32,599 nucleotides of DNA from Polyangia bacterium (GTDB taxonomy: Bacteria > Myxococcota_A > Polyangia > Polyangiales > Polyangiaceae): the NCBI GenBank assembly GCA_030433055.1, contig JAUILJ010000001.1, forward strand, positions 1 through 32,599, given 5' to 3'. Under the pieces are notes generated by a model. That model worked only from the letters and a program-made list of their open reading frames with translations. It made no database searches and was not told the origin of the DNA. The translations under genes and the position numbers were made by a program. This document shows positions 2,178-26,116 of the stretch, one piece after another. Each line of letters begins with the position of its first letter. Position 1 is the stretch's first letter.

Positions 2178-3029
2178 TCAGGCCGCGGCGACGTACTGCG
2201 CTTGACCACCGAGGGACTGCGCCAGCTTCTTCCGTGCGCGGCTCTCTAGCTGGCGTGCGCGCTCGCGGCTGATTCCCATGCGCCTGCCGAGCTCCGCGAG
2301 GCTCAGCGCCTCTCCGTCTTCAGCCATCAGGCGCTCCCGCACGATGCGTCGCTCTCGGGCGTCCAGCTCACTCAGGGCGCGCTCCACGATCTTCTGGACG
2401 ACCTCCTGCCGCTGCCGACGCATCAGGCCGGTCTCCTGGCACTCGTTGTCGCCCTCGAGCTGCTCGATCATGGGAGACGAGTCGTCCCTAACGGTGCGGT
2501 CCAGAGAGACGTCACCCGAGTCGAGGCGTTGCAGCATGGCCTGGAGGCTGTCGTCGCTCAGATCGAACTGTTTCGCTAGAGCCTGCTTGACGAGCTCCGG
2601 GTCCCCAAGCTTCGCCTGCAGGCGCGCCCGCTCGCGGCGTAGCTTGAAGAACATGCGACTACGCATGACGCCGCTTCGCGTCTGCACGATGCTCCACGTC
2701 GCGAGCACGTGGTTGATCATTCGCGCGCGGATCCAGAACGCGGCATAGGTGCCGAAGCGATAGCCGAGCTCCGGCTCGAACTTGTCGAGGGCCTGCAGCA
2801 CTCCGACGTTGCCCTCAGCCATCAGATCGGAGAGCGGCACCCCATAGGCGCGCAGCTTCCGAGCGATCGCAGTGACTGCCCGCAGCTGGGAGCCGATCAG
2901 ACGCTCTCGAGCCTTTGGGTCTCGGTGGTTCTTCCAGGCCCAGGCCAGCTCGAGCTCTGCTTCGCGGGACAAGCTGGGGAACTTGGTGGCTAGCGCGTCA
3001 TAGCGACTGACAACGGGATCTCGATACAT
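2178..3029 (-). CDS. RNA polymerase sigma-70 family factor, RpoH (sigma-32)-like
   Basis: DLMAEGNVGVLQALDKFEPELGYRFGTYAAFWIRARM (region 2), SRMFFKLRRERARL (RpoH-box-like), SLAELGRRMGISRERARQLESRARKKL (region 4). Confidence 0.9.
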   Translation of the reverse strand: MYRDPVVSRYDALATKFPSLSREAELELAWAWKNHRDPKARERLIGSQLRAVTAIARKLRAYGVPLSDLMAEGNVGVLQALDKFEPELGYRFGTYAAFWIRARMINHVLATWSIVQTRSGVMRSRMFFKLRRERARLQAKLGDPELVKQALAKQFDLSDDSLQAMLQRLDSGDVSLDRTVRDDSSPMIEQLEGDNECQETGLMRRQRQEVVQKIVERALSELDARERRIVRERLMAEDGEALSLAELGRRMGISRERARQLESRARKKLAQSLGGQAQYVAAA

Positions 3030-3073
3030 GGGGGCTGCTCCTGGTGGCGTCGTGCGGCCTCACCGCACCCCCC

Positions 3074-3103
3074 TATCATTGTCCAAGACAAAACTTTGTC
3101 AAC
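3074..3103 (-). promoter_or_regulatory. Candidate promoter of the sigma gene: -35 TTGACA (complement 3098-3103), weak -10 near complement 3074-3080
   Basis: Perfect -35 hexamer on the minus strand about 70 bp upstream of the ATG; -10 is weak (TGATAG-like); lies inside the GACA repeat array. Confidence 0.4.
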
Positions 3104-3166
3104 TCCAGACATCTCATTTGTCTACGATTTGTCCAATGTCTGTCTAGGCTATGTCCAATAGGTGTA
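3096..3166 (-). promoter_or_regulatory. 11-bp direct-repeat array (minus-strand nTnGACAnA), candidate MerR/CarH-type operator
   Basis: Plus-strand TTGTC at 3096, 3118, 3129, CTGTC at 3140, ATGTC at 3151, GTGTA at 3162: all in 11-bp register (the 3107 unit is not conserved). Confidence 0.65.
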
Positions 3167-3386
3167 ACCGGTTGGATTTGCAGGACCTATCCAGTCTGAG
3201 CCGCGGATGAACCGGCGGAGTGAACATGGACAAATGTTCTACAAATCGCCCCCGCGCGTTCGGCGGGGCCGCGTCGCCTGACTCGAGCTGGAATCGCGAC
3301 GCGCCGAGCCCCCGGCGCTCAGCACTGCGACGGTCGATCCCCGCGGAACTGAGAAGGGCCGCCAGGTGCGCTTCGAGGAGGGCGGC

Positions 3387-4325
3387 TCAGGTGTGCTGGA
3401 GCTTCAACACGTCGAGCAGCGACGTCAGCGACTTCCAGTCGGTCACCACGGCGTAGCGAGAGTCATCGAAGCGCAGCGCTGGAGCCAGCGCCCCCCCCAC
3501 CCACAGGGCGCTGAAGCGCGGCAGGCGCTCGAGCAACTCGTGAATCGCAGCGCGTGCGCACTCGACATCGTAGCCGAGCGCCACCGACAGCCCGACGGCG
3601 TGCGCTCGCATGGCCGCCGCCGCTTCGATGATGTCCTCGATGGGCGTGTTGACTCCGACCACCCGCGGCCGCACGCCGCGGCTCGCGGCGATCAGGCTGA
3701 CCAACTCGAGCCCCAGGCCATGCTGCTCATCGGGCAAGGTGGCCAGCAGCAGCACCGGCCCGCTCTCAGGCTCGATGTCGAACAGGAGCTGGCGACAGCG
3801 CGAACTGAGCTGCTGGCTGAACAGGTGCTCGTGGCGCACGGCGAGCTCGCCCAGCTCCCACTCCGCGCCCACGCGCTCGATCAGCGGTGCGGCGTACTCG
3901 ATGGCGAAGCGCTCGGCGCCGAGGCTGACCGCCGCGTCGGCCAGCGCGTCGCGCACGAAGTCCACGTCCTCTTGCTTGAGGCGCTGAATCACCGTCTCGA
4001 GCTCGGGTGGTGGCAGCTTGACAACGCTGGCGCGCTCGGCCCCCGCGCTCCGCTGAAGCAGCGCCCGGAGCTCCTCTTCGCTCATCTGCGCCGCCTCCCC
4101 GGCGCGCGCGCCAACATCCATGGCCCGCCGGATCAAGACCAGGCGATTGACGTCAGCATCGGAGTAGACCCTCGCTCCGCTGGCGGTGCGGCTGGGCACC
4201 GGAAAGCCATACCTCCGCTCCCAGATACGCAGCTTGTCTGGGGTGATTCCGGTGAGCCGCGCGGCGACCCCGATGGAATACTCGGACGGCACGGGGTCTT
4301 CAGGATCTGGGAGCTGGGACGACAT
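3387..4325 (-). CDS. MerR-family regulator with cobalamin-binding domain, CarH/CarA/LitR-like
   Basis: MerR HTH YSIGVAARLTGITPDKLRIWERRYGFPVPSRTASGARVYSDADV; W-x9-EH motif (WELGELAVRHEH); B12 ligand-type segment LPDEQHGLGLELVSLIAASRG. Confidence 0.88.
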   Translation of the reverse strand: MSSQLPDPEDPVPSEYSIGVAARLTGITPDKLRIWERRYGFPVPSRTASGARVYSDADVNRLVLIRRAMDVGARAGEAAQMSEEELRALLQRSAGAERASVVKLPPPELETVIQRLKQEDVDFVRDALADAAVSLGAERFAIEYAAPLIERVGAEWELGELAVRHEHLFSQQLSSRCRQLLFDIEPESGPVLLLATLPDEQHGLGLELVSLIAASRGVRPRVVGVNTPIEDIIEAAAAMRAHAVGLSVALGYDVECARAAIHELLERLPRFSALWVGGALAPALRFDDSRYAVVTDWKSLTSLLDVLKLQHT

Positions 4326-4369
4326 GCGACCATCCGGTGTGTCGAACCATCTGGAGCGTTAGTCAATGG

Positions 4370-7300
4370 TCAGTGGGCAGTCGACGCTCGGTTACCCCTC
4401 CAGCCGACGCTGGATTCGCCGACTCTCCGCGCTGCGCCTCCCGTACGGACCAGCACTTGCCGAATACTCCAGCCTTCCTCGGCTTCGATGACCTGAATGG
4501 CACGCCCCTGCTTGGTACCGACGACGTCGCCTCCGCGGAAACACACACGGTTAGTGAGAAGTGCAGGTACTCGCTCTCCCGCCACCGTGAGCCCACGCAG
4601 GTTCAGGGGGTCCGCAGCGCTGATTGACACCAGCTCGGGCTCCGCGTTCTCCCTCCGCAGAGCCCGCAGCTGACTGACCGCCTCGGGCAGCGCGTACTGC
4701 TCTCCGGAAAACCCAGCGACGAATCTGCCGCCCCGGATCTCTCCCCGTGCCTCGAGCCGCCGCAGCACCCGCACCAGATCGCGCCACGGAGGTAGCGCAG
4801 ACTCCCGCTCGAGCAGTCGGCGGAAGACAACCCCCCAGCGCACCAGCAGCCTGCGAGCGACCTGCTCCATTTGAATCCCCGCGGTATCAGTAGACACAGT
4901 GTTCCGACTGGCAGGTTGAGGTGTGCAAGCTGCGGTGGAATCAAACGCTGCGGTGGAATCAAATAGAGACCAGCGACCACCGAGTTCCATCCCCTGCCCG
5001 GCGCGCCTGCCGTGGCGCCTGTGAGCCTGGCCGCGTTGTGCCGCGGGCACGATGAGCGCGCGGAGGCCCGCAAAGCTATCGCTGTTGGCCAACCCGAGGG
5101 CCACCAGCTCCGCGAGCCCTTCCTCGACCTGGGTGCGCAACAACCCGCTGCGCCCCATCAGGTCCATGAAGAAACACGCGCCTGCCTGGCGAAGCACTTC
5201 CCGGATGCGCGCCGCTGCGGGCGACAGCTCAGGGGCGTCGTTCGTCCCCTTGCCTTCGCTGTTTGGCAGCGTGCTCTCTGCGCACCACACGCCGAGGTTC
5301 GTGCGGCTTACGAGGGCAACGGGGGTAGCGCGAACCGGAGCGGGCTTTCCGCGCCTCGCTCCAGCCTGCGCCGCGGGCGGCGTGCGACGCAGCCACGTGA
5401 CGCGCCCAGAGAGGCACAGCAGATCCAACCACGCGGGATCATAGTCCGCGATCCGAGCAGGCAGGATCTCGTGCTCCCATGCCGCGGCGGGCGCCTCGAA
5501 GCCCTCCAGCTGATCCAGCACCTGAGCCAGGGCGTCGGGTCCCGAGCCCTGATGCCCGGGTTCGACGCGCTGCCAGCGTAGCAAGAAGCGCATGAAGTCG
5601 GTCTGCGGAACCGGTTCGATTTCACTCCTCAAGCGCGCGAGCGTGTAGCGATGAATGCGCGCCAAGAGGCCGCGTTCACACCACTCGGTTCCTCCAGCCT
5701 CGAGGGTCGCGTCGGCAGCGGTGAAGCGACCGCGGAGGACGAAGCCCTCGGTCTCCAGCGTGAGCAGCGCGACCTCCACCTGAGGCGCCTCCAGGCCTAG
5801 CTCCTGAGCAAGTCGAGGTGTACGCACCGGACCGCGACACTCCACCTGGCCCCGCACCAATTCCACGAGGATTTCTTCTGGGGTGCGTTCGATCTGGGGC
5901 ACGAGCTTCTTGGGGATCTCCAGTGTCGGCGATTCCTTTGCTCCAGCGTAGAGCCGGCGTAGCTCCGCCAAGCGCTCCACCGCGGCCCACACGGACTGCC
6001 CATCGGGCAGGGCGAGGCGAGCGGCACGGCCGCTCGCCCCGAGGGCCCGAAGCCCATCGAGCCACCCGAGCTCGTCCGCGCTCTCGTGCCGCACGACACC
6101 GAGGACCTGCAGCGCATCAGCGAGCTCGTCCTGATCTCGCACGTTGGGCCAGGCTTCGTCCTGGACGCGCAAGATGGCCTCCGGGTCCAGCGCACCGAGC
6201 TCGCTGGCCTGCGCGGGAGAGAGCCACCGCCTGGCAGAGACCGCCTGGGTTCGGCGCTCCTCGAGGGGCGCATCGTCGAGGAACGCGTAAGGGCGCGCAC
6301 TGAGGATCTCCAGGGAGAGCGGCGAGGGCTCAGTGAGATCCCGGGCTATCAGGCGCTTGTGCCCTCCCACCACCTGACCGAGCAGCGCTTCGAAGGCTTG
6401 CACGTCCATCGCCTCGACCAGACAGTCGCTCACGGTCTGCTGCACGAGCGGGTGGTCAGGGACTTCACGCGGACCTGCGAGGTTCTCCTGGCATGCGACC
6501 TGATCCGGAAAGACGAGCGTGAGGAGATCTGCGGCGTTCATGCGCTGGAGCCGAGGTGGTACCCGGCTTCCTCCACGGAAACGCGAGATGGCCAGTGAGC
6601 GCGTCGCGTTCCAGCGCCAGCGCGTCTCGAACATTGGCGCGACGAGCAGCGCCTGGATGAGCAGGGGCCGCACGGTGTTGGGGTGCAGGTAGCTGAAGAC
6701 CTCTTCCAGCGGGAACGAGTGAGTAGGCCCCAGGGAGAGAATCAGTGCATCCTCGGTAGCTGCGGCTTGAAGCTCGAAATTGAAGCGCTGACAGAAGCGT
6801 TTACGCAGGCTCAGCCCCCACGCGCGATTGACGCGACCGCCAAACGGAGCGTGGAGCACCAGCTGCATGCCACCGCTCTCGTCAAAGAAGCGCTCGAGGA
6901 CCAAGGTGTCCTGAGTTGGCAGGCAGCCAAGCGCCTGATACGCCGCAGCCAGATACTCGATGAACTGGCTCGCCGCGGCGCGTGGCACCGCAGCGCTGGT
7001 GTAGCGCTCTGAGAGTGCCGCGAGTGCCTCGGCGCTCGGCGGACCGCCAGCTAGCGCACACAGGTCTTCGTCCACCTGGGCACGCAGGCGACTGACCGCC
7101 AGGGAAAGCTCGTCCGTGCGGGCCGGCGCCTCCCCGAGCCAAAACGGGATGCTCGGTGGCAGGCCCTTCGCGTCCTCTACACGGACCCGGCCCGGTTCGA
7201 CCTTGACAATGCGCCACGAAGCATTTCCCAACTGGAAAATATCACCGGCCATGCTCTCGATCGCGAAGTCCTCGTTGATCGTACCGACGAAGTAGCCGCC

Positions 7301-8863
7301 GGGATCAGCGACGACCTCGTAGTCGAAGGTGTCTGGAATCGCTCCGCCATTGGTCATGGCCGTCAGACGAGCGCCGCGGCGCGGCTTGATCAGCTCGCCA
7401 ACCCGATCATAGAACAGGTGAGCACCGCGACGGCCGCGACGCGTGGTGAAGCCGTCCGCGAGCATTTCCAAGATCGCGTCGAACGTCTCACGCGGCAGAT
7501 CACGGTAGGGATGGGCGCGCTTGACCAGCTGATACAGCGCGTCGCTCTGCCACTCCTCTTCGGCTGCGACCGCCGCTACGAGTTGCTGGGCCAAGATATC
7601 GAGCGGCGCGATGGGGATCTGAACCTGGTCGAGCTCACCTCGCTCGAAGGCGTGCAGGAGCGCTACCTGTTCGACCAGCTCGTCGCGCGAGAGCGGGAAC
7701 ACTCGGCCCTTGGGCACGCCTCCCAGGCTATGACCCGCGCGGCCCACACGCTGGAGCAACGTTGCGATGCTCCTGGTGGAGCCGAGCTGGCACACCAGCT
7801 CGACCGCACCGACGTCGATACCCAGCTCGAGGCTCGCGGTGGCGACCAGAGCCGAGAGTTCCCCGGACTTCAAGCGTTGTTCCGCGCGAAAACGCTGCTC
7901 ACGAGAGAGCGAGCCATGATGTGAGGTGACCTTGTCGTCACCCAGCCTGGTCGCCAAGTGGCGTGTCACTCGCTCAGCCACGCGCCGGGTGTTGACGAAG
8001 ACCAGCGTGGTCTTGTGTTCGCCGATCAGCTCGGCGACGCGATCGTAGATCTCCTCCCAGACTTCTCCGGCCATGACGGCCTCGAGTGGGCTCGACGTCA
8101 CCTCGATGGCCAGGTCCAGGTGGCGCTTGTGTCCGGTATCCACGATATGGACAGCCCGGGGGCGGCCCCGGCTCTCCTCACCCCCCAAAAATTCGGCGAC
8201 GCGCTCGATCGGCTTCTGCGTCGCTGAGAGGCCGACGCGCACGAACCCTGGCGCGAGCGCTTCGAGGCGCTCGATACTGAGCGCCAGATGGCTGCCCCGC
8301 TTGTCCCGCACCAGCGCGTGGATTTCGTCCACGATCAGCGTACGCACGCCCTTGAGCAGCTCCCGGCCGCCCTTGCTCGTCAGCAAAATGTAGAGCGACT
8401 CCGGTGTCGTGACCAACACGTGGGGCGGCTTCTTCAGCATGCGGGCGCGCTCGCTCGCCGCCGTGTCACCGGTGCGCACGCTCACCCGCAGAGCAACGTC
8501 TGGTAGGCCGCGCTGCCTCAGTTCCTCACGGATCCCTTCTAGCGGGAGCTGCAGGTTCTTTTCCACGTCGTTGCTGAGCGCCTTGAGCGGCGACACGTAC
8601 AGCACGTAGCAGCGCTCTTCGAGCTCAGACTGGAGGCCAAGCTCGATCAGCTCGTTGAGCGCCGAGAGGAACGCGGCGAGGGTCTTGCCGGACCCGGTGG
8701 GTGCGGCGATCAAGGTGTGCTCCCGCGAGGCGATCAAGGGCCACCCGGCCAGCTGTGGCGCGCTCGGTTCACCCAGCTCGCGTGAGAACCAGGCGCGCAC
8801 CGCGGGGTGAAACAACTCAGGAGCGCCGGGTCGCTGCGTCCGCTTGGCCATCCCAGGCAGCAT
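4370..8863 (-). CDS. lhr: Large Lhr-type DEAD/DEAH ATP-dependent helicase
   Basis: [15 protein letters not shown] (Walker A), VDEIHAL (DEVH-type box), [53 protein letters not shown]; about 1500 aa, as in Lhr; start may be at the internal MAKRTQ. Confidence 0.92.
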
Positions 8864-9569: not shown

Positions 9570-10631
9570 ATGCACCTGCTCGGGCTGCGCATCGCTGGGC
9601 TCATGCCCTTTCGCGATATCGTCTTACCGTTCGTGGACGATAGCGGGGAGCCGCGCATGCTCACTGTACTGTATGGCGCCTCGGGTGTCGGCAAGACCAC
9701 GGTGATTCACGCCATCGGTTCGACGCGCCCGGGCTACGCCATCGCGCAGCCCAAGGCTGCCTCCATGGCACCGCCAGGCGCACAGGAATTACCATGGGCA
9801 AATGCCGACTGGCGCCTGGGTGACGATGACCCGGAGCGGCCTCATGCGCTGCGCATCTCCTCCCCTGGCGCAACGCTGTTCCAGGACCCGGAGACCGAGC
9901 TGCTGCGGCGGCGCGAGCAGGCGCTGTTCGACAAGATCGCGAAAGACCGCGGCTTCGTCTTCCTGGCGTTCGCCAGCACGCGCTGGTTCTCTCGCCAACC
10001 GCTCGTGCTCAGCTCGCCGTCGCGGGGGGTGGCGCGCTACGACGTTCGCACCCCACACAGTCTGGATGACGCGACTCGCAGTGATCTTTCTCGAGAGACC
10101 AAGCAGGCGCTCGCATACGCCGAGATCGGTTCCGCGCTGCAACGTGCGAGCGGCTCTCGCGTCGCAGCCCCCAAGCTCGAGATCCTGGGGGCCGCCATGC
10201 GCACAGCGGTCAACGGCGTCGTCAGCCTGACTGGGCACGTCTATCATGGCCTGGACCCGATGACGTTCGAGCCGTTGTTCTCGTCGCCCAGCGGGCAACG
10301 GCTGGCTTTCGACTCGCTGCCGAATCAGGCGCGCCACCTGGTCGCGTTCGCCGCACTGCCGACCCGGGCGCTGTGGGCAGCCTATCCTGGCTCGGACCCG
10401 CGTGTGAGCGAAGGCGTGGTGTGTATCGACGACGTCGACCTGCATCAGGACCGTGGGGCTCAGGCGCGCCTGCTGCCAGCGCTGCGCGCCGCGCTGCCCG
10501 GCGTGCAGTGGATCCTGACCACCTCTTCCTCCGAGGTCGCAGGCAGCGCCGACACGCGAGACGTGCTCGCGCTACGCTGGGACGACGATGAGGTGGCGCT
10601 CTACGCAGGCGTCGAGGCGCGAGTGCACTAG
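9570..10631 (+). CDS. ABC/RecF-type ATP-binding protein (putative AAA ATPase)
   Basis: LYGASGVGKTTVIHAIGSTRPG (Walker A), GVVCIDDVDLHQD (Walker B-like). Confidence 0.75.
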   Translation: MHLLGLRIAGLMPFRDIVLPFVDDSGEPRMLTVLYGASGVGKTTVIHAIGSTRPGYAIAQPKAASMAPPGAQELPWANADWRLGDDDPERPHALRISSPGATLFQDPETELLRRREQALFDKIAKDRGFVFLAFASTRWFSRQPLVLSSPSRGVARYDVRTPHSLDDATRSDLSRETKQALAYAEIGSALQRASGSRVAAPKLEILGAAMRTAVNGVVSLTGHVYHGLDPMTFEPLFSSPSGQRLAFDSLPNQARHLVAFAALPTRALWAAYPGSDPRVSEGVVCIDDVDLHQDRGAQARLLPALRAALPGVQWILTTSSSEVAGSADTRDVLALRWDDDEVALYAGVEARVH

Positions 10632-24196: not shown

Positions 24197-26116
24197 CTAG
24201 CGGATCACCGGGCGAACCTTCACTTGCACGCGATCCCCTCCCACAATGAACAGCGGAAGCGGCACGACCTGGCGCACCATGGGTGAGAACGAGTTCGGTG
24301 CCACGCTCGACTGCGTGGGCCGAATCATGTCCATCGCGCCGGGTGGGAGGTCTTCAGCGATCATCCCCTTGTACGCGACGCCCCCGGTCTGCGCGCTGTA
24401 GCTGACGATCAGCGACTTGGGCGGATAGATGGGATCCTCGAAGTTCTTGATCAGCTCGCCCAGGTTGTTCGGCGGCGCCTTGACCTTGTAGTGGGTGTAT
24501 CCCGGCGAAAGGCTGAGGCTCACGGTCTGGCCTGCCAAGTCCTTCGGCAGCGGGACCTTGATCACCCGCGTGATCTCTTTACCCGCCCAGGGCATCAACG
24601 TGAGGCGGATGCGAGCCGACTGGCCAGCGTCGACCTCGGGATCCAGGAGCTCAGTTCCCTTCAGCAGATAGATTTCGCGAGCGAAACGGAACTCGATCTC
24701 CATGGTGACGCCCTCGATGAAGGCGTACTCCCAGGGATTGTTCATGATCGCGCCGACGGCGCGCACCAGGTTCGAGCCGATGAAATCGCGGGGCGAGGGG
24801 GAGCCGCCCACCGAGACACCGAAGTCCTCGAGTTCGATCTCGCCGTAGCCTTTGATCTTGAGCTTGCTCGTCGCGTTCCAGCTGACGTCTTGGTTCTCTG
24901 CAGCGACGGCCTGCATGGCCGAACCAAGGGCTACCGCCACGAACGAGGGCGTCATGAACTTCTCGTGCGCTACCTCGAAATCCCACTTGGTGTAGGGGTT
25001 TCCAGGGACGCCCTTGATCTTCAGGCTCACCGGGAACGTCGGAGCCTGGAGCGACTGGTCGACGACAATCGACGCCTGACGGTCGTTGACCAGGGTGCCC
25101 ATGGGACGCACGGACTCGCCGATCTTGAACGAGCGGGACACGCTCGCCATGAAGTGCAGCACACGCCCGATGGTGGTGGGCAACGCCGTGTTGCCGGACA
25201 TCATCATCGGGTGGCCGAAGGCGACCAGCTTGTCACCCTCAACCCGGGTCACCGTGCCCAGGCCCATACCGCTCATATCCCCACGGATTAGCTCGACACC
25301 GATGGCTCCGCCGTCCTCGAACCTCGTCGGGGCGCCAGGCGTCACGCCGGAGCTACCCCCCGCCTGAAGCGGCTCGAGGCCCAAGGGGGCGAACAGTTCC
25401 CGCGCGACTTCGATCGCGCCGGTGGTCATGCCACCGATCATGATGGGCGTGGTAACCGGCCTGACGCCCGTCGTCTCACTGGGTGCCTTCGCGGCCTTGG
25501 CTTTGCCGATTTGCTCGGCGTGCTTCTTCAAGTCGTAGTCTTGAATCTTGCCGGCATAGCGCTGCTGTGAGCCCGTCTTGCGCAGCGCCTGCTTCGCCTT
25601 GCCGGCAGGCTTCTTGGGCAGCGCGTGCAGGGGCCAGCCATCAATCTGCTTGGGCAGCGGACGCACCAGGTCGTCCAACATCAGTCGGATTGGCGTCACG
25701 CCTGCGACCGGCTCTCTGCCAAAGGTCCAGCCATACGCGTAGGCGCCGATCATCTTGTTGTTGATGTAGATCGGGCTGCCGCTCATCCCCGCGACCGCCT
25801 TGGCCACCTCGAGGCGCGGGTGCTTGGTCTTGATCAGGATCGACTCCTGACGCGGCTGGAAGTTCTTCAACACGTCGATGACCTCGACCTCGAACTTCTC
25901 GGGCTTCGTGCCCTTGAACACGGTCAGGCCGTAGCCCTTCATGCCAGGCTTGATGTCCTTGACCGACATGATGTCGGGACGCGATGTGAGGCCCTCGGCC
26001 TTCGCGGCGTGGAGACCAATCGGGAGTGGAGCCAGCAGGCCGATGACGGCCGCAGCCGCGATGAATGTAGTCGCCCTCAAAGTCCGCCGAGCATACCACC
26101 AGGCTCGCGAGGGCAA
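24197..26116 (-). CDS. SpoIVB peptidase S55 domain-containing protein
   Basis: MSVKDIKPGMKGYGLTVFKGTKPEKFEVEVIDVL and AVAGMSGSPIYINNKMIGAYAYGWTFGREPVAGVTPI. Confidence 0.88.
   Translation of the reverse strand: MPSRAWWYARRTLRATTFIAAAAVIGLLAPLPIGLHAAKAEGLTSRPDIMSVKDIKPGMKGYGLTVFKGTKPEKFEVEVIDVLKNFQPRQESILIKTKHPRLEVAKAVAGMSGSPIYINNKMIGAYAYGWTFGREPVAGVTPIRLMLDDLVRPLPKQIDGWPLHALPKKPAGKAKQALRKTGSQQRYAGKIQDYDLKKHAEQIGKAKAAKAPSETTGVRPVTTPIMIGGMTTGAIEVARELFAPLGLEPLQAGGSSGVTPGAPTRFEDGGAIGVELIRGDMSGMGLGTVTRVEGDKLVAFGHPMMMSGNTALPTTIGRVLHFMASVSRSFKIGESVRPMGTLVNDRQASIVVDQSLQAPTFPVSLKIKGVPGNPYTKWDFEVAHEKFMTPSFVAVALGSAMQAVAAENQDVSWNATSKLKIKGYGEIELEDFGVSVGGSPSPRDFIGSNLVRAVGAIMNNPWEYAFIEGVTMEIEFRFAREIYLLKGTELLDPEVDAGQSARIRLTLMPWAGKEITRVIKVPLPKDLAGQTVSLSLSPGYTHYKVKAPPNNLGELIKNFEDPIYPPKSLIVSYSAQTGGVAYKGMIAEDLPPGAMDMIRPTQSSVAPNSFSPMVRQVVPLPLFIVGGDRVQVKVRPVIR

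Follow-up and report, generated by a model that had tools for sequence, protein, structure and literature searches.

The region between a CarH-type regulator gene and an RpoH-like sigma factor gene in the analyzed window (32,599 nucleotides of a Polyangia bacterium, contig JAUILJ010000001.1) carries an array of tandem 11-bp repeats that overlaps the promoter of the sigma gene, and positions 3079-3172 are in all likelihood a dark-state operator through which the adjacent regulator would silence this gene. The regulator gene (3387-4325, minus strand) encodes a protein of 312 aa with a MerR-type winged helix, a B12-binding_2 domain, and a B12-binding domain. It lies directly upstream of the predicted target, the sigma gene (2178-3029, minus strand; 283 aa), with the array between both; a likely ribosome-binding site, AGGAG, can be read at 3038-3042 on the same strand, 8 nt before the sigma ATG. 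The initial annotation had proposed a CarH-type operator here, and this reading is supported by (i) the motifs of the regulator, (ii) the match to the published repeat, (iii) the embedding of the -35 element, and (iv) the matching register on the carH side.

Read directly on the minus strand, the array proceeds in 11-bp steps throughout as TTGGACATAGC, CTAGACAGACA, TTGGACAAATC, GTAGACAAATG, the degenerate AGATGTCTGGA, and then GTTGACAAAGT, which bears out the earlier description of GACA units in strict 11-bp register with one degenerate member; the array had been placed at 3079-3166, where it is indeed present, but the GTTACACCTA block reaches 3168, two bases past that end. In the register nnnnTnnACAn, five exact TnnACA repeats and one pseudo-repeat fill 3096-3161 without a gap, all on the minus strand: direct repeats 1 (3151-3161, CTATTGGACAT, T at 3157), 2 (3140-3150, AGCCTAGACAG, T at 3146), 3 (3129-3139, ACATTGGACAA, T at 3135), and 4 (3118-3128, ATCGTAGACAA, T at 3124), the in-phase pseudo-repeat (3107-3117, ATGAGATGTCT, at 3113 in this register), and direct repeat 5, which holds the -35 element (3096-3106, GGAGTTGACAA, T at 3102). 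A weak upstream pseudo-repeat on the same strand (3162-3172, ACCGGTTACAC) keeps the ACA in register, with G replacing T. A CarH operator is expected to comprise at least three tandem 11-bp TnnACA units; five exact units and one pseudo-repeat stand in phase here, and any other period from 7 to 16 yields at most two in-phase units. The core (3079-3166) has a GC content of 40%, compared with 61% for the whole intergenic region, and this composition favors T and A, so that a chance pattern in an AT-rich promoter had to be considered. Its probability is negligible: none of 5,000 dinucleotide shuffles of 3030-3386 reached three in-phase units (maximum, 2), and among 5,000 shuffles of the AT-rich core, 4 reached three units and none reached four, compared with the five observed. 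We rejected a chance origin on the basis of these core shuffles and of the 11-bp peak seen independently in relatives (see below). A scan of the 7.9-Mb assembly found the three-unit pattern solely at the array, as two overlapping matches, and the reversed control gave none. In addition, a CarH-type pair in phase, TGGACA-N5-TCTACA, is present on the plus strand at 3227-3243, about 70 bp upstream of the main array and in the opposite orientation, with no obvious plus-strand gene following it.

The promoter search of 2950-3450 returned a single sigma-70-like match (shuffle mean, 0.1), composed of the -35 element TTGACA (3097-3102, minus strand) and a putative -10 element, AATGAT (3075-3080, minus strand), separated by a 16-bp spacer. 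The TTGACA lies inside the last repeat, as the initial annotation had pointed out, and the array has the overlap with a -35 or -10 element that is expected of a CarH operator. The palindrome TTGTCCAAGACAA (minus strand, TTGTCTTGGACAA), which had also been noticed in the spacer, was found exactly there, at 3079-3091, and relatives conserve it at their carH and sigma promoters. Its GACA half-sites face in opposite directions, 7 bp apart, and do not follow the 11-bp phase of the array; the dyad overlies both the spacer and the -10 edge, with its center 12 bp from the end of the -35 element. A MerR-type winged helix together with a dyad between -35 and -10 could also mean that CarH acts as a classical MerR-like activator, twisting the dyad-bearing spacer of the sigma promoter. 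We consider this very improbable, since classical MerR activation involves a 19- to 20-bp spacer and a dyad centered 7 to 8 bp from the end of the -35 element (PMC5045206), and both the spacer length and the place of the dyad led us to reject it; moreover, the characterized CarH proteins repress (PMC9304148). A role of RNA structure was also discounted: there were zero Rfam matches, to riboswitches or other RNAs, in the window, and for a perfect hairpin at 3052-3068, in the 5' leader, folding was not better than that of shuffled sequences (z, 0.65).

The closest solved relative of the 3387-4325 product is Thermus CarH (5c8d; E value, 7.8e-24), and the sequence places the regulator with this protein. 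The RxWERRY motif is present (R33-x-W35-E-R-R-Y39) within a Pfam MerR_1 match (E value, 9e-15), and the Wx9EH motif is intact (W156...E166-H167); both are invariant in 25 aligned sequences, as are E200 and H202 of the ExHxxG motif at residues 200 to 205. An intact Wx9EH motif separates CarH from the B12-independent CarA and has been used as the criterion for myxobacteria, and the published form of the B12 motif is D/ExHx2G/P-x41-SxT/V-x22-27-GG (PMC9304148). In our protein the latter reads EQHGLG (at 200), x41, SVA, x27, and GG, with Ala replacing Thr/Val. By the myxobacterial criterion the regulator is thus CarH-like, with a single deviating residue in the B12 motif. We use the label CarH-type rather than that of a proven CarH equivalog, because the protein misses the cutoff of the NCBIfam CarH equivalog NF052513 (118 versus 400 bits) and because of the residue at the upper-histidine position: Glu follows Trp in the regulator, where Thermus CarH has His132, the upper histidine of the light-exposed form. 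With Glu at this position, the bis-His light state could not form as in Thermus.

Other MerR-type proteins also bind repeats, and a second, weak match to the regulator lies elsewhere in the genome, on contig C582; an unrelated direct-repeat regulator (e.g., another MerR protein, BldC-like) might occupy the array, with carH a mere bystander. We give this a slighter chance still than MerR-like activation, since the same repeats stand beside carH in many genomes and also precede carotenoid and light-response genes. The initial annotation had made its reading depend on orthologous loci keeping the 11-bp register, and this held for the carH upstream regions: in 31 such regions from other Polyangia, same-strand TnnACA pairs occurred 23 times at 11 bp and 8 times at 22 bp, compared with 0 to 1 at each of 7 to 10 and 12 to 15 bp. 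Three-unit arrays beside carH were found in nine of 108 family genomes (G000, G011, G028, G080, G093, G099, G104, G116, and G127); genes for GTP cyclohydrolase II and for fasciclin lipoproteins are preceded by carH-linked arrays, on the side facing away from carH. Other three-unit arrays lie before genes for amine-oxidase/desaturase-like, polyprenyl synthetase, SOUL, and polyketide_cyc proteins, predicted functions that fit a light response. Tandem repeats were thus found mainly on the carH side and before light-response genes, and at sigma promoters they are clear solely in the window; a few other sigma promoters have two units, and in several relatives the tandem repeats are weak or absent and the dyad alone is kept. 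At sigma promoters, it is mainly the spacer dyad that is conserved. Raw pattern counts were discarded as evidence, as the reversed controls are not far below the counts for the three-unit pattern (49 versus about 34 in the 108 genomes, where a single repeat in G013 makes up half of the control) or for the exact dyad promoter described below (11 versus 5 in the same genomes); the support rests on the positions of the sites and not on their numbers. Separately, we observed that fasciclin-domain lipoprotein genes (L111, L116, L234, L235, and L013) and DUF4397 lipoprotein genes (G024/G065; L109 and L110) adjoin carH, mostly behind CarH-type operators, which suggests that these are light-controlled surface proteins.

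The dyad recurs at both carH and sigma promoters of relatives, where TTGAC is followed by TGTCYNRGACA starting at position 12 or 13. Among the exact matches to TTGAC-N5to9-TGTCYNRGACA in the 108 genomes, 9 of 11 lie at promoters of carH, of sigma genes, or of carH-adjacent partners (DUF4397 lipoprotein and DCC1-like/sigma). When one mismatch was allowed, G022 and G064 each had exactly two sites, one at their own carH and the other at an unlinked sigma gene; these cases weigh most, because neighborhood cannot explain them. Within 200 bp upstream of carH, the dyad was present in 36 of 80 loci, mostly from Burkholderiales and other Proteobacteria but also from Polyangia, compared with a background of 0.0033 per 200 bp elsewhere in the same loci, and none of four permuted dyads occurred upstream of carH; these counts include related species, which are not independent, and are not to be read as probabilities. 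Proteobacterial carH upstream dyads are often paired, 62 to 64 or 70 to 75 bp apart (about six or seven helical turns), e.g., in L166, L172, L182, L187, L190, L195, L218, L224, and others, and such pairs could reflect divergent promoters or looping.

The head-to-head arrangement raises the question of whether two regulators are involved, with CarH on the direct repeats and a different dimeric protein on the spacer dyad TTGTCYWRGACAA. The opposed half-sites, 7 bp apart and out of phase with the array, point in this direction, as do promoters that have the dyad without tandem repeats and the fact that the literature consulted describes CarH on direct repeats only (PMC9304148). On the other hand, the half-site GACA is the same in the dyad and the repeats, the dyad lies upstream of carH in several proteobacterial groups as well as in Polyangia, and the sigma-promoter dyad was found solely in genomes carrying the carH clade to which the regulator of the window belongs. 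We regard a second regulator as rather unlikely, and favor the reading of the dyad by CarH itself because the half-site is shared with the repeats and the dyad tracks carH.

Within the sigma factor, regions 2 and 4 are present. The NCBIfam model rpoH_proteo is its best match of all sigma families, at 216.6 bits against a cutoff of 323.1, and the sigma-32 model gives 213.3 against 241; the protein is called RpoH-like because the RpoH cutoffs are missed though these are the best of all sigma families. In the tree, four carH-linked sigma genes (one from this genome, two from G036, and one from G007) group together, a grouping that is subject to a long-branch warning. G083 has two further carH-sigma pairs, which are divergent; their sigma genes are more distant and are preceded by two in-phase repeats. 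In G007, the dyad promoter is separated from the carH-linked sigma gene by a gene for a DCC1-like thiol-disulfide oxidoreductase (L105, 5987-6418). For many RpoH-like sigma genes in the family, the promoter has another strongly palindromic element, of the ACGTTACGT / GTAACGTAAC type (L034, L038, L041, L042, L044, L045, L046, L048, and L057), which in L033 stands beside a CarH-type dyad; this element suggests another conserved regulator.

With the repeats lying over the -35 element and the dyad over both the spacer and the -10 edge, the layout fits a blocking of RNA polymerase. In the dark, adenosylcobalamin-bound CarH would oligomerize on the tandem 11-bp repeats and probably also on the spacer dyad, covering the -35 element, the spacer, and the -10 edge, so that the housekeeping RNA polymerase could not start transcription of the sigma gene. 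Light would break the cobalt-carbon bond of the cofactor, the oligomer would fall apart, and the sigma factor would be made and would turn on its own gene set. We infer CarH binding and repression, rather than activation, from this arrangement, and the link between light and derepression follows the characterized CarH proteins (PMC9304148).

The 275 bp upstream of carH in this genome contain neither a repeat array nor the dyad; only 44 bp (4326-4369), free of both, separate it from the upstream Lhr-type helicase gene (4370-8863), and carH may here, unlike in relatives, be transcribed from the helicase promoter. No match to the phytoene synthase family or to the photolyase family was found in the 7.9-Mb assembly, which is 82% complete, so that absence is not proven; carotenoid or photolyase genes were accordingly set aside as the local output. 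Given that the array is the sole three-unit site, that carH has no array or dyad just upstream, and that the search for phytoene synthase and photolyase came up empty, the principal and perhaps sole direct target may be the sigma gene, with light relayed through the sigma regulon. Two-unit repeats outside the array occur genome-wide at 5 sites, compared with 4 in the control, and further CarH targets can therefore not be named. Elsewhere in the window, we observed an AAA-type ATPase gene (9570-10631, plus strand) whose product weakly matches PtuA, a retron-associated effector (44.8 bits against a cutoff of 500), and, at 24197-26116 (minus strand), a protein matching SpoIVB peptidase S55, a family best known from spore formers, in this Polyangia-type genome.

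Published CarH operators, including that of Myxococcus xanthus, consist of tandem 11-bp nnnnTnnACAn repeats with the -35 element TTGACA inside one of them (PMC9304148). The putative operator in the window shares with those of Myxococcales, Thermus thermophilus, and Bacillus megaterium the 11-bp repeats, a pseudo-repeat, the embedded TTGACA, and an adjacent or coregulated gene of the CarH-type MerR/B12 class, but differs in (i) the predicted target, an RpoH-like sigma gene where the known operators control carotenoid genes, (ii) the five exact repeats in one array, instead of three or four, (iii) the additional head-to-head GACA dyad in the spacer, and (iv) a carH gene without an operator just upstream (PMC9304148). 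In Pseudomonas, the class II LitR proteins PplR1/PmlR2 recognize TGTACA-N12-TGTACA (PMC9758184); they are likewise MerR-type repressors of light genes with ACA half-sites overlapping -35 but, unlike CarH, class II works with a LOV protein and not through its own B12 photochemistry. A full-text literature search for CarH together with RpoH gave a single match, a review (PMC12627116) that cites Azospirillum RpoH2 in the alphaproteobacterial photo-oxidative stress response; an RpoH-type sigma factor serves a light-related stress response there, and control by a B12 light sensor is not described. The open literature, which leaves subscription papers mostly outside, yielded neither CarH-type control of an RpoH-like sigma factor nor a description of the spacer dyad.

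A link from light sensor to sigma factor is itself known: in Streptomyces, the B12-type regulator LitR is coupled with an ECF sigma factor, LitS. As in the window, a CarH/LitR-type light sensor is connected to a sigma gene in a two-step cascade; the likeness drawn here is one of gene pairing, and LitS is an extracytoplasmic-function sigma factor, whereas the sigma factor of the window, with regions 2 and 4, is most like RpoH. What is already known is therefore the CarH operator and, from LitR-LitS, the sensor-to-sigma link; what appears to be new is a sigma target in an assembly in which phytoene synthase and photolyase were not found, plus the conserved spacer dyad. The geometry of repeats plus dyad is not described for CarH in the literature consulted for comparison (e.g., PMC9304148). 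We propose, tentatively and at somewhat less than even confidence, that a CarH branch spread over Polyangia and several Proteobacteria uses an operator made of both tandem 11-bp repeats and a head-to-head GACA dyad, and that this operator has been transferred to RpoH-like sigma genes in several Polyangia, making a B12-light-sigma cascade possible without carotenoid genes.

To conclude, CarH is the model B12 photoreceptor and, to our knowledge, has been characterized almost exclusively as repressing carotenoid genes directly, while the arrangement in this bacterium suggests that light switches on a whole sigma factor program and not carotenoid genes alone. In Burkholderiales and Polyangia, the conserved spacer dyad gives a sequence feature by which CarH targets can be predicted, and it poses the structural question of how DNA-binding domains that dock on head-to-tail repeats would read a head-to-head site. 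If a CarH-type sensor does gate an RpoH-like sigma factor, a light switch with a single target would become a global one, in bacteria with an unstudied light response.
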